Source: Asterochloris sp. CNOR1 | Taxonomy: Eukaryota; Chlorophyta; Trebouxiophyceae; Trebouxiales; Trebouxiaceae | Reading direction: 5' to 3' | DNA: 64,000 bases | Assembly: GCA_963969365.1 (NCBI GenBank) | Contig: OZ017748.1 | Span: 4,310,762-4,374,761, forward strand | Shown: positions 1 through 64,000 of the stretch, piece by piece | How positions within the stretch are numbered: position 1 is the first letter of the stretch | Layout: the number at the start of each line of letters is the position of its first letter | Translations under genes and position numbers: made by a program | Notes under the pieces: generated by a model | The model's database searches: none | What the model saw: the letters and a program-made list of their open reading frames with translations, nothing else | Told to the model about the DNA's origin: nothing

Positions 1-854
1 CCCACAGGAGGGCAGCAACGGCGTTGGCAGCACTTGGGCATGATAGCTGCCCAGGGGCTGCCCTCTGTCAGGCATGAGGTCGCGTGGCAGGCATGTTGCA
101 TGGCAGAGCCCATAGACCTGGGCACCAGGCACATTCAGCATTGCTGGGCGTGGGCTCTGAGATGACCATGCAATCACTGCTGAGACTGAGCCCTGTGCTG
201 CTGGCACGGGGCTCTGAGATGACTTGCAAGCACTGTTCAGATCCAGCGCTGCACGCTGTCTCAGCAGGCACAGCGTGGCAGGCATGTCGCAGAGCCCCTG
301 CACCCCTTGGACCCTGATGCCCTGCGCATATTGGTGCTGCTGTGCATGGGCTCTTGCGTTGACCTGCATCTCCGCTGACTTGATGACCTGCACCACTGCT
401 GACCTGCATCACTGCTGAGAGCCCTGCACGCCGCCCTAGCAGGCGCAGGCAGCGTAGCAGGCATGTTGCAGAGTTCTGCACCCTCTGGACCGTATTGCCA
501 TGCAGGCCCAGCAACCACTGGGCATGGGCACTTGATGCACCTGGCAGCGCCGCCCAAAGTCAGTCAGGGCCCTGCACACAGCCTTTGTCACGCCAAAGCG
601 GGCCTGCAGAGCCCTTTGGGCCTGACCCATCATTTTGAGCAGACTGAGGTGCCCCTGGACATTGGCACAAGGAGCTCTACAAGCTGCAAAAGACTCGTTG
701 TCTAGCTACCTTTGGGCATCAGCCAGATGGGCCTCTTACTCCTGCTTAGATCTGCCTGCCACCGGATATGAGAGCTCTGATCATGCTGCGAGGGACCAGC
801 CTAAAGAGCAGCAGTAAGGAGCAGATTCTTATGACATCTGGCCTTCCTATGCAG
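1..854 (+). other. 5' flank or intron of the MYST gene, with decayed exon copies
   Basis: No coding exon could be supported here. The stretch holds several degraded same-strand copies of the first recognised exon of the MYST gene (855-993). The clearest are at about 749-797, 652-690, 210-240 and 149-180; each resembles the segment encoding [12 protein letters not shown]. Elsewhere in the window such copies lie on the intron side of an exon edge, and 855 is preceded by a good acceptor (tatgcag). I therefore infer that this is intron and that the true first exon lies further upstream, outside the window or unrecognised. In-frame ATGs at 783, 831 and 849 are alternative starts if no upstream exon exists. 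Confidence 0.5.
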
Positions 855-3800
855 ATCCGCCTGCCCCTGGATGTGGGCACAGAGATGATCTGCAAGCGCC
901 GCTGGGACGGGGCCCAGCACCTGGCCAAGATCATCGAGCGCCGCAAGCAGGAACACACAGAGGAGTACGAGTACTACGTGCACTACAAGAACTGTGAGTT
1001 CTGGTCACCATCACCTGTGCTGCACTGCTTGGGCGTGGCAAAAGGGTTCTGAGATTTCAGGCTGTCGGCACCAGCCAAGCGCACTTCAGCCTGTGGAACG
1101 TGTAGTCAAGCTCACCTTAGCCCACCCCAGCCCACCCCTTTTGGCCTTTTGGCTGTCAAACCCAAGCCCATGCTGAGTGGTTGTGCTGGCAGTGCACCTT
1201 CAGCTGATCTGCTGGGCCTGCTCACCTTCTCGCCCAGATAGAAGCTGCGCCTCGTCACAGCCTGCCTTAGGCTCCCGTCTACCCCTCAAGGTCATTTCCT
1301 GACTGCTCCATAACTCTTCAGATGCGCATCACAGTGAACTGGCGCATACCCCCCCAGATCATCAGCTTGTCTTCCTGAGCGCTCGACATCACCTAAAAAT
1401 TACAGTGAACCAGTGTGGGGACCCACTCACCTGAACAGCCTTCATCTGCCGCTATTCATGCCCCAGCATCTAGACTTGTGGGCTCCAGTCATCATTTCAC
1501 CAAGCTTGTCGTTGACCTGCCCTGCCTGCAGCTGGATACGTGCTTCCCTGGTGCTTCCTTCTGGTTGTCGCCTGACAGTCAGAGCCCCTCAAACTTCAGG
1601 CTGTTGATCACCCATGTTGGCAGGCTCCCCCACCCTGCCAGTTTGTCACTACACGCCCAACCAAACCCTCACCCATCGTTGCACAGACTGTGTTGTCTGT
1701 GGGAGGCGTCTGAGCTTCTGCTTCTCTGCCTGCAGTGAATCGGCGCATGGATGAATGGGTCCCTCTGGAGAGTGTGGACTTGACCACAGTGGAGACGATG
1801 GAGCCAGAGCCATCCCTCAGCAGCGATGCAGCGGCCAGGTGACCTGGAGGAGTTTCCAAGTCTGGTGGCAGCCGCAGAATGGTGCACCCGCCGGCCCGGC
1901 ACTGCTGCAGGGCAGTGCAACTGTCTGGCCAGCGTTGCAGGGCAAGGTGTGCAGGGCAGTAGGCGACGGGGCAGTCTGTTGGGCAGAGCCAGAGGAGCCA
2001 GAGCCATCGTGCAGCAAGTTGGCAGCTCTGCATGGTGACATGTCAAGGCTGGTGCCAGCTGCAGGGCATTGCAACAGTTGCCTAGCAAGGGGCGTGACTC
2101 TCAAGCCTTTCCCCTGCTGTAGGACCACCCGTGGGCAGAAGCGCAAGCTGGACGACGTGCATGAGGACGACGACGAACACGCTGGCTTTGACGCCGCCCA
2201 GCTGCGGGAGCACGAGGAGTTCACCAAGGTCAAGAATGTGGCCAAAATCGAGCTGGGGCGCTACGAGATGGAGACCTGGTACTTCTCGCCGCTGCCTGAC
2301 GAGTTCAAGGGCTGCACGGTGAGCGCCTGTGCAGCCCCATGGCAGCACTGTGGGTCTGCTGGTGCTGGGGTGCTACGAGACGGAGACGTGGTGCTTCTCG
2401 TACTGCTTGACAAGGGCTGCCCCACAGTGCGGGCACTGCTTCTCATGGCCATTGTCCCTTAGCAAGTGCTGAGCAGAGCTGCAGAGGCGCTCACCGTGCA
2501 GCCCTTGTCTGCACATGCAAAAGGGAATGGCCACTGTACACAGTGCCATTATAGTGAAGATTCTAAGCGGGCGCCAGGTGACGGGTTTGCTTCTCTTCCT
2601 TGTGGAATCCCAGCCAATTATTGTGGTGCGCTTGAGGCTGCACCACTTCAAGCACCGTGGTATGTACACAGCTGTTTACGGTTGATCAGCAACGTGAGGA
2701 GTCCTGCTCTGCACCGAGGAGTCTCGCAAGCCCAGGCCCTGCTGCTTTGCAGTGTGCCTGACAAGGCATGTTGCCTTCCTGTAATGCAGCTGCAGGCTCC
2801 TGCTGCATAACGATACTTTGCAGCCCTGCCCTGCCGCACTTGACCTGAATACATCTCCATCTTCAGTCCTCTGGTCTTTCGCAGAGGCTGAGACTGTGTT
2901 TGCAGAGCGGTGCACCTCTGCAGCCAATTTCTCAGGTTGTCCCCCTTTTTGCAGAGCTGCATGAGCCTGCGCTGCCTGTCACTCTTGAGCTGCCTTGCCT
3001 GTCTTCAAGTGCGAGCCAGAATCCTCTGTAACAACAGCAGGCTGTCTGTTAGAGTCACAAGCATATGAGGCCGTCCCTGCTGCCGCGCAGGGCTTTCCTG
3101 TATTTGGTACATCCATAGGTATGGGTACAGGGCTCTGCAGCCATCCACTGCTGACTTGTCACAGCGCGGTAGCCTCTGTGCTGTGTCCTGTTGCAGACGC
3201 TGTACTTTGCGGAGCAGGACCTAATGTTCTTCAAGCACCGCGAGGAGATGCTGCAGCACATCAAAAAGTGCAAGATCCAGCACCCCCCGGGCGACGAGAT
3301 CTACAGGTGGGCAGATTTGCCAGGTGGCATTGCACACTAGGTCCAGCCTCTGCTGCCTGCGGTATCAGCATGTCTACCTTCCTCCATGATGCTCTGCTGA
3401 TGAAGTCTGATGCACAAGCTGATTGATTTTGCTGCACTACCTTGAAGTCTCAAGCACATGATTTCTGCACAGTTTGTTACTGGCTGGCTGGCTATCCTGG
3501 AGATGAGATATGTCGTTTATGGACTTACATGTTGCTGGCAATTGCCCAGACAGCCCTGACTGGCTGCAGTGAATTGCTTGCAAGGGACAACTTTGCAAAA
3601 CCCCAGCGAGGCACCTGATTGGGAAACGCAGCTCAGCTGACCCCCATTGGCACTGCTTGCAGGCATGGGTGCAAAGCCATCTCCTGTCTCCAAGATTGAC
3701 GGCAGGACACATGAGGCAGCTGCCTCAAAGCGTGTTGCCTTTTGATCACTTATATCTTCCCTGCAGGAACGGCTGCATCTCGATGTTCGAGATTGATGGC

Positions 3801-62800: not shown

Positions 62801-63723
62801 TGCAGGTAGCGTAGGTAGCAGACAGATGAGCCTATGTCTGAGTAAAGAAAGTTTGACAGGGCATTGGAGTACTGCTACAGGAAATGTCAGGCTGTCAGCC
62901 AGACTGACCATGGTCACCTGCATGCTGGCAGCAATCATATAAATGTAAGCTGTGCACTGGAGTGCTGACAGCTGGCTGGCTGCCTGGTCACCTACAACGC
63001 ATGCAATGCAAGGGTGGTGCATGCAAGTGGCACTCTCAAAGACAAAGCATGATCTACATGACAAAATAGCCAGGCGACAGAGGCTTCACATGTATAGGCC
63101 AGAGGGGCACCAGCAACTCAGTGCTGGGAGCTGCCTGCAGCTTCAGCTGACACGCAGACAGAGCTCGGAGAGCTATCCACACAGCATGTGGTGAGAGACG
63201 TGAGGCTGGAGTCCCTAGACAGCAGTCCAAAACAGATGCTCAATGTCAATAGTGCATTGCTTGGCTACATTTAGAGGAGCCAATGCTGCTAGCAACACGG
63301 CAAATGTCACTGCAATATGCCTGATGCTGATCACTACTGCTGGTGAACAGCATGGCCTGCGCAGTGCAGGCTGATGGCTCCAGGGGGAGCACAATCCTTC
63401 GGGAGCACTCACTCATATCAGCACCAGTCTGCGCCGCTTACCTGGAATTCCTGCGTTGGCTGTAAGGGAGATGGCTGTGCACGTGCGCTGCTGGTGCTGG
63501 CACCCATCGTTGCACTGCCGGCTGCAAGTATGGCTGACTGCCTCAGCAGGGTTGACCTGTTCACAGTGTCTTCTGGTTCCTGGTAGACCTCGCAGGTGCC
63601 TGACTGAGCTGTGGGACGCAGAGAGATTCTGGTGGAGTCAGGGGACTTTCTCAGAGGGTGGAGAGAGGTCCGAGCTGGAAGCCTTCCACACTGCAATACA
63701 GTCTGGGCGTGGAGTGCATGCAT
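59826..63723 (-). CDS. Conserved plastid protein of unknown function, probable thylakoid-lumen targeting
   Basis: Seven minus-strand exons: 63723-63442, 62560-62467, 61904-61787, 61353-61326, 61108-61013, 60366-60281, 59973-59826. All phases agree, giving 283 aa. The first 90 or so residues look like a bipartite transit sequence. An Arg/Ser-rich part (RLPARTSLHPLRKS, RISLRPTAQS) is followed by RSTLLRQSAILAAGSATMGA and a final SSARAQPS, an A-x-A lumen-type cleavage site. The mature part reads SELGVSRYPIFSYDSRGGGG, LFVSFDLAQLSIPDVNWRTA, FLGVPMAPPFRIHIEPSKLE, then GTIDRETGQAELEFIADFMF, YKAPPLKVTTNLTTE, LVGVATVPKTGSTPIDKFL and LPNEAYAVMSSRFSFH. It looks like a conserved photosynthetic-lineage protein of unknown function, but I cannot name the family. 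Lumenal location is inferred from the leader only. Confidence 0.82.
61955..62020 (-). repeat. Decayed copy of exon-3 start in the lumen-protein gene
   Basis: Minus-strand gccgcaaccccggcagcaag, then ctgtttatgactgttgacctt, resembles the true exon segment GAAGCGCCCTGGCAATAAGC then TCTTTGTGTCATTTGACCTGG (about 61900-61860). Confidence 0.78.
62690..63000 (-). repeat. Three decayed copies of exon-2 start in the lumen-protein gene
   Basis: The true exon begins ctgcag|GTGACCATGCAGACTCTGGC at 62560. Copies: about 62718-62695 (ctgcag|gtaacagtgcagaccctggc), 62919-62895 (atgcag|gtgaccatggtcagtctggc) and 62992-62970 (ttgtag|gtgaccaggcagccag). Confidence 0.9.
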
Positions 63724-64000
63724 GCGCTCTGAATGAGGAGAAGTTGTAGGCAGGGGTCTGCTGACTTTCTTGGGAAGCTTGCATTCTTGGACTTATCTTC
63801 AAGAACGCTGGGCCCCTGAGCTGAGTGGAGCTCAGTTGCTCTTCACATCATGAGTACATCAGCCTGATGTTGTGCCTGCAGCTGCACAAGCTGTTTTTGT
63901 ATCTCAGTGGGGAGCTGTGGCTGCTGACTGAGCCGTTGCTGCTGGGTGATCTGCAAACGCCTCTATCGCATGATGCAGTAGAGCAAACTCCTAGAGCACA
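63724..64000. other. Upstream region of the lumen-protein gene
   Basis: Presumed promoter and 5' UTR. No coding segment or clear promoter box seen. Confidence 0.4.

Follow-up and report, generated by a model that had tools for sequence, protein, structure and literature searches.

Decayed same-strand copies of exon edges in the introns of Asterochloris sp. CNOR1, a probable product of short tandem duplications filtered by splicing

According to a review, tandem duplication is the one route of intron gain that has been shown in vivo (PMC3443670). In the RdRp gene of potato a tandem duplication crosses an exon border and comprises the end of an intron together with the start of the next exon (PMC4974935), and among novel intron positions in Drosophila 5 of 31 were ascribed to duplication within the reading frame (PMC2891723). 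Tandem duplications are the commonest insertions in rice, where they are enriched at 50-200 bp and have been ascribed to the repair of adjacent nicks (PMC7971508). The published genome of Asterochloris glomerata carries 9 introns per gene (PMC6652019), and the available text of a paper on a chromosome-level Trebouxia genome mentions introns once, in the reference list (PMC12712428). The present analysis concerns a stretch of 64,000 nucleotides of the green alga Asterochloris sp. CNOR1 (contig OZ017748.1, positions 4,310,762 to 4,374,761), hereafter the window, which is the end of contig C3 in a genome of 56.4 Mb and 21 contigs. Its introns contain degraded copies of the borders of neighbouring exons, an exon edge being repeated together with its splice site, and these copies are called echoes here. 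It is very probable that they are the remains of short tandem duplications, of about 15-330 bp, which were not aimed at borders, were filtered by splicing and then decayed.

The side on which echoes lie was examined for 54 anchor exons picked by homology, 25 of them in the window and 29 in Helicase_C genes elsewhere. The first or last 50 nt of each exon was compared with the 600 bp flanks, at a threshold set from the flanks of other genes, 0.66% of which exceeded it. The exon start recurred upstream in 10/54 anchored exons and downstream in 0/54, and the exon end recurred downstream in 12/54 and upstream in 0/54. An echo was thus present on the predicted side of 22/108 borders (12/50 in the window and 10/58 in the Helicase_C exons elsewhere) and on the wrong side of 0/108, the reverse strand giving 1/216, and 19/54 exons had at least one. 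One window anchor, 4284-4325, is probably false, being absent from the public protein P0112 (label jgi/Astpho2), and had no same-strand match; leaving it out gives 22/106 and 0/106. The first-pass annotation of the window, made by a model from the sequence alone, had described such same-strand copies, and they are confirmed both there and outside it. Its statement that copies of the acceptor and exon start always lie upstream, and those of the exon end and donor always downstream, holds nearly without exception: among all 188 collapsed ungapped repeat pairs, donor-crossing pairs lay 26 downstream and 0 upstream, and acceptor-crossing pairs 16 upstream and 2 downstream. Echoes occur in 27/51 multi-exon predicted genes; in the window, where at least nine genes had been claimed, 8 of the 10 predicted genes pass the threshold. 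The locus L041 was left out of the side test and of the count of unit lengths, since its match score and length are the same as those of L040. These two Helicase_C loci, 10.6 kb apart on contig C8 and with identical match scores, are perhaps a recent gene duplication, and if so could reveal how echoes diverge.

Repeats of the same kind are widespread at short range. The sample consisted of 244 kb, namely the window and 18 stretches of 10 kb taken at random, one from each large contig, and an ungapped diagonal count at a score of at least 20 gave 210 direct against 16 inverted matches. Eleven of the 16 inverted matches fall in one low-complexity coding exon (8345-9708 of stretch L007), which is full of internal repeats and also inflates the direct count. 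The claim that all copies are on the same strand stands apart from one clear exception, 2306-2335/2478-2507, the sole inverted window match at a score of at least 20 and a young one by its identity; in RNA the two arms would, by folding calculation, form a hairpin placing the true donor in a stem of about 30 bp (z -5.87). A BLAST self-comparison of the window (score at least 22) found 22 direct matches at offsets of 0-200 and 25 at 200-500, 47 in all, and 3 and 0 inverted; one dinucleotide shuffle of the window gave 0 direct matches in either range. In the random stretches there were 63 direct matches at 60-500 bp and 0 inverted, and among exact 10-mer pairs the direct outnumbered the inverted between 20 and about 350 bp, with little excess at longer range. 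Offsets range widely, from about 15 to 330 bp, and no unit length clearly predominates: a unit near 105 bp was considered and dropped, as the fine histogram (p 0.02 for 100-110 bp) had no clear peak, and a minimum offset near 100 bp, suggested by BLAST in the random stretches, is probably an artefact of that program, the k-mer and diagonal counts reaching 15-20 bp. Tandem Repeats Finder (TRF) listed 15 arrays in the window, 3 of them with 3 or more copies. Short-range same-strand copies with inverted ones rare are what local tandem duplication leaves, and the short units, high copy number and high identity of microsatellite or minisatellite slippage were not found.

The echoes decay like non-coding DNA. 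Mismatch between exon and echo is nearly flat by codon position (.222/.245/.294), indels occur in 74/91 exon-echo pairs, and the offset is a multiple of 3 in 25/80 exon-intron pairs, the chance rate, against 23/31 pairs within exons. (For the mismatch and indel counts 11/110 exon-intron and different-exon pairs were set aside as ambiguous, 3/99 were dropped because the exons were under 30 nt, and 5 more fell under a score of 22, leaving 91.) It is on this ground that alternative or duplicated exons, or repeats in the encoded proteins, appear most improbable. Some echoes were indeed called as exons with open frames, and the copy at -237 in the 79-bp array described below is in frame; the extra copies nevertheless show neither the coding constraint nor the kept frame of a tandem exon duplication. 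In the phenylalanine hydroxylase (PAH) gene the predicted exon 33512-33544 has an 11-residue reading that echoes 11 residues of the exon after it, and it is with the intact copy in exon 33646-33808, not with the echo, that the PDB alignment begins. Exon 2123-2318 of the MYST acetyltransferase gene is supported by Pfam and by P0112, from which its echo at 2364-2471 is missing; P0112 matches the predicted MYST exons without echoes.

These observations suggest the following course of events. Short direct tandem duplications, mostly of 15-330 bp, arose at many places in the genome, probably through a repair or replication route like that proposed for the rice duplications of 50-200 bp. Those inside exons would persist mainly when the frame is kept. 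A duplication crossing a border may persist if splicing continues to pair the two sites on either side of the intact exon, and the extra exon edge and splice site would thus be stranded inside the intron, as the side rule implies. The stranded copy then decays, as shown above, like non-coding DNA, whilst selection holds the intact exon, so that an echo should be recognisable for longer than a duplication of intron within intron, and repeated events would build ladders. The corresponding part of the first-pass annotation, in which local tandem duplication crosses a border, the exon-proximal site is retained and the other copy decays, is supported.

It is a separate question whether borders are duplicated more often than other sequence, and it was addressed by placing the same offset-length pairs at random in 300 sets. 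The 80 exon-intron pairs seen compare with 73.3 +- 6.6 under random placement; the count fits, and no border-seeking process is therefore needed to account for it. The sides do differ from random placement (donors 26:0 against 11.2:5.5, acceptors 16:2 against 10.9:5.9), but one-sidedness is what selection on splicing would leave, because copies on the other side carry intron sequence into the mRNA, and alone it is no proof of a directional mutation process. Several results nevertheless weigh against unaimed duplication filtered by splicing. Pairs with both members coding were too many (63 against 44.4 expected, range 31-62) and intergenic pairs too few (4 against 11.7, range 5-21), both lying outside the null, and intron-only pairs were also fewer than expected (41 against 58.6). 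Of the 63 both-coding pairs, 33 lie inside one predicted exon, 2 of these being the 79-bp array and 13 the low-complexity exon of L007, and 30 lie in different predicted exons, of which a post hoc coding-score rule finds 19 to resemble echoes miscalled as exons and leaves 11 unclear. The gene models are self-made, from a small self-trained hidden-Markov gene finder trained on the 244 kb (it replaced a first run with poor models); some echoes were called as exons, 19 being demoted by the post hoc rule and the 11/110 pairs set aside, and P0112 contradicts 2 of the 12 MYST exons called (4284-4325 and 1911-1946, the latter left out of the query). After demotion, exon-intron and non-exonic pairs stand at 99:45, the null being about 1:1. 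The exonic share of the unit is not uniform (median.38, Kolmogorov-Smirnov p.017), the exonic part of the unit is only slightly more conserved than the intronic part (identity.724 against.705), and, away from alignment ends, acceptor CAG is retained in 13/15 echoes against 83/164 for exonic CAG, so that echoes show no purging of splice dinucleotides. The ratio of 99:45, together with the smaller excess of same-strand matches in intergenic than in intron tiles, favours a border-targeted mutation process, in which transcription, R-loops or chromatin make splice borders duplicate more. Against it, the unadjusted count fits random placement, the exonic share spreads widely (10th-90th percentile.17-.79), and frozen exon copies should remain detectable for longer; pairs in which one copy is under selection should decay more slowly, and this can, by argument, explain part of the 99:45. 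We consider such targeting improbable, and a modest border preference possible. The CAG figure would suit echo splice sites kept as functional decoys that regulate splicing. That is very unlikely: donor GT is retained in 13/24 echoes against 60/128 for exonic GT away from alignment ends, with no clear difference, and 5 of the 15 acceptors belong to demoted exons, whose detection depended on having an acceptor, and are so biased. An over-retention of splice sites in echoes, once considered, weakened when alignment ends were trimmed, and its remainder is subject to that same bias. Dispersed intron-making mobile elements (introners) or other transposons would account for repeats being pervasive in introns, yet both echo blocks searched genome-wide (the array at 40665-41021, and 26501-27000) match their own locus only, so that the same element in many unlinked genes was not found for these two, and the direct excess stops at a few hundred bp; this explanation can practically be set aside.

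The further proposal of the first-pass annotation, that a continuing border-duplication ratchet is a major source of intron sequence, turns on the ages and the amount of the copies. A simulation of constant birth with neutral decay and the same detection, a simple model, places 86 of 268 binned pairs (32%) at a Jukes-Cantor distance (K) under 0.15, against 10/136 observed (4/74 exon-intron, 4/30 different-exon and 2/32 intron-only); age histograms omit pairs with an offset under 40, a score under 22 or under 30 columns. Gapped-alignment ages run into older ladder steps and had masked the 79-bp array among the older pairs, and with ungapped cores the figures are 23/109 observed and 39.6% of 386 simulated at K<0.15 (p 3e-5, ladder pairs not being independent), and 9/109 and 101/386 at K under 0.1, the array contributing 3 of the 9. 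Young copies thus fall short two- to fourfold. Their loss is not the cause, because old copies would go too, and the simplest reading is a rate that has fallen since an older wave; the majority of visible events are old and a few, such as the array, recent. Unaimed duplication filtered by splicing leaves the shortage unaccounted for, which is a further point against it. Divergence was said to start from near identity, and the array does so, but near-identical copies are few. As to amount, of 139721 predicted intron bases 11968 (8.6%) fall within detected repeat copies. At a score of at least 12, 23.4% of 40-nt intron tiles have a same-strand match and 10.2% a reverse one, an excess of about 13%; the corresponding figures are 27.4% and 14.1% for border tiles, 23.2% and 14.8% for exon and 10.5% and 7.2% for intergenic tiles. 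The coverage and the tile excess are lower bounds, since detection drops to 27% at K 0.5-0.6 and almost to nothing at greater distances. A ratchet can therefore appeal to copies that fade beyond K of about 0.5, as well as to the breadth of echoes across genes, to the few young copies, by which the process has not stopped, and to the greater median length of echo-bearing introns (293, n 63, against 200, n 507, without). Longer introns, however, offer more chance of a match, and neither the count of young copies nor the detected share of intron bases supports it, although older copies may be invisible; that echoes are a major source of intron sequence is possible, and the ratchet as a whole seems unlikely. 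A bolder extension of the account preferred here would be that Asterochloris introns were remodelled genome-wide by a wave of short tandem duplication in the past, that the greater part of their sequence may go back to it without being detectable any longer, and that one-sided echoes reveal exon definition despite short introns; this we put forward as doubtful speculation. Seven of the 17 least diverged repeat pairs listed lie in stretch L016 of contig C15, where GC content is lower (0.52), and which may be a different kind of region.

The window loci are collected in Table 1. The 79-bp array at 40.7 kb is as the first-pass annotation described it. Its unit consists of 24 nt of intron end with the acceptor and 55 nt of exon start, the acceptor has exact copies at 0, -79, -158 and -237, and the array is a single locus in a search of the 56-Mb genome. 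The exon begins LLECPWSYSSGWVTCSQLHGP (given as LLECPWSYSSGWVTCSQLHGPAAILIGDAAH) against LYAAPWSQGGAWVRCSQLHGP (given as LYAAPWSQGGAWVRCSQLHGPRVILLGDAAH) in the MMETSP homologue P0232, aligned by eye, and its acceptor is supported because the homologue has matching residues at the same place. Use of the copy at -79 or -158 would shift the frame. That the most downstream of several identical acceptors should be taken fits pairing across the exon, as far as the sequence can indicate. The ladder above exon 26342-26500, parts of which the gene finder called as small exons, has the largest number of copies found at a score of at least 20, five; ladders do exist, and the figure of about seven per border is not reached at that score. 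The echoes of exon 6985-7088 lie at offsets of 116, 187, 275 and 483, in a model (6138-14893) with stops inside its translation, which is unreliable. Exon 48522-48736 has donor copies at 48819-48870, 48940-48991 and 49192-49272 and an acceptor-side copy at 48387-48451; a relative of its gene, P0001 (78% over 21% of the GH43-like query), was set aside as splice evidence since it looks like an exon read into non-coding sequence. Exon 39695-39882 has a donor echo as well (offset 127), and exon 35216-35332 of the PAH gene is supported by Biopterin_H and a PDB match.

Table 1. Echoes and echo-bearing exons in the window (positions are those of the window; FAD, flavin adenine dinucleotide)
Feature	Positions	Strand	Support or remark
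Exon of kynurenine-monooxygenase (KMO)-like FAD protein, start echoed	40590..40719	-	Pfam FAD_binding_3 (E 2.3e-5), KMO PDB matches
79-bp array, 4.5 copies, upstream of and into exon 40590-40719	40665..41021	-	TRF
Exon with five-step acceptor ladder upstream, offsets 109, 216, 322, 499, 682	26342..26500	-	self-repeat search
Ladder of decayed acceptor and exon-start copies of exon 26342-26500	26557..27224	-	repeat families D3, D5
Predicted exon, acceptor echoes 7179-7225, 7250-7296, 7338-7384, 7546-7592	6985..7088	-	family D2
Exon of GH43/DUF377-like gene with both kinds of echo	48522..48736	+	families D4, D12, D14; homologues
Two donor echoes (86%, 91%) downstream of exon 27927-28127	27741..27911	-	family D6
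Donor echo (81%) downstream of exon 45254-45583	45079..45142	-	family D16
Acceptor echoes (offsets 119, 229) upstream of PAH exon 35216-35332	34912..35145	+	
Acceptor echo of PAH exon 33646-33808	33487..33557	+	partly called as exon by gene finder
Two acceptor echoes upstream of exon 39695-39882	40036..40180	-	family D17
Donor echo (offset 112) of MYST acetyltransferase exon 2123-2318	2364..2471	+	
Two acceptor echoes upstream of exon 58828-58947 (KRR1-like gene)	58502..58704	+	family D18
Acceptor-side echo upstream of exon 62467-62716	62892..62922	-	family D19
Inverted copy (97%) of exon end and donor 2306-2335, MYST acetyltransferase gene	2478..2507	-	

The window models supported by Pfam are the MYST acetyltransferase, an aromatic amino acid hydroxylase, an ELF4 protein and KRR1; support for the KMO-like FAD protein is weaker, and 2 of 8 window protein queries had no Pfam match. 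The MYST model matches P0112 at 397/411 positions, the aligned residues being identical and the remaining 14 a gap over one doubtful predicted exon. The ELF4 model, at 51985-52839, carries the Early Flowering 4 domain (Pfam E 3.9e-20), here in a green alga. The model at 53134-59654 joins an N-terminus that looks phosphatase-like, though without a Pfam hit, to KRR1 and is probably two merged genes. That at 19260-32346, with a coiled-coil seen by eye and a weak Scramblase match just below the Pfam cut-off, is probably two genes also.

The origin of intron sequence is usually unreadable, and here coding selection freezes one copy of each border duplication. Exon edges thereby become markers of intron growth, by which events can be counted, roughly dated and oriented, and where identical splice sites compete, the echoes offer a natural experiment on which one is chosen. 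In genomes of this kind a gene finder may mistake echoes for exons, as happened here. The closest likeness is to the potato RdRp duplication, where the duplicated piece holds a branch site, an acceptor and putative exonic enhancers (PMC4974935); that is a single recent case, in which a new intron arose from a cryptic donor, whereas in Asterochloris many genes and both borders are involved and the copies appear unused. The AGGT-duplication model of intron gain likewise has a short genic tandem duplication tolerated through splicing, but there an exonic AGGT piece is duplicated and an intron created, and here an existing intron grows (PMC3443670). In the Drosophila cases duplicated exonic sequence turns intronic, as here, with no ladders in the part of that paper drawn upon (PMC2891723). 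The rice duplications share the size class and direct orientation, but are variants between varieties and, in the text available, are tied neither to splice borders nor to intron decay (PMC7971508). Introners are, like echoes, a recurrent source of intron sequence; they copy themselves into many genes (PMC9860276), and the two echo blocks searched here are local. Border-crossing duplication has a precedent in a single gene, that of potato, and a genome-wide account of exon-edge echoes or ladders was not found in the open-licence library searched, which omits most subscription papers.

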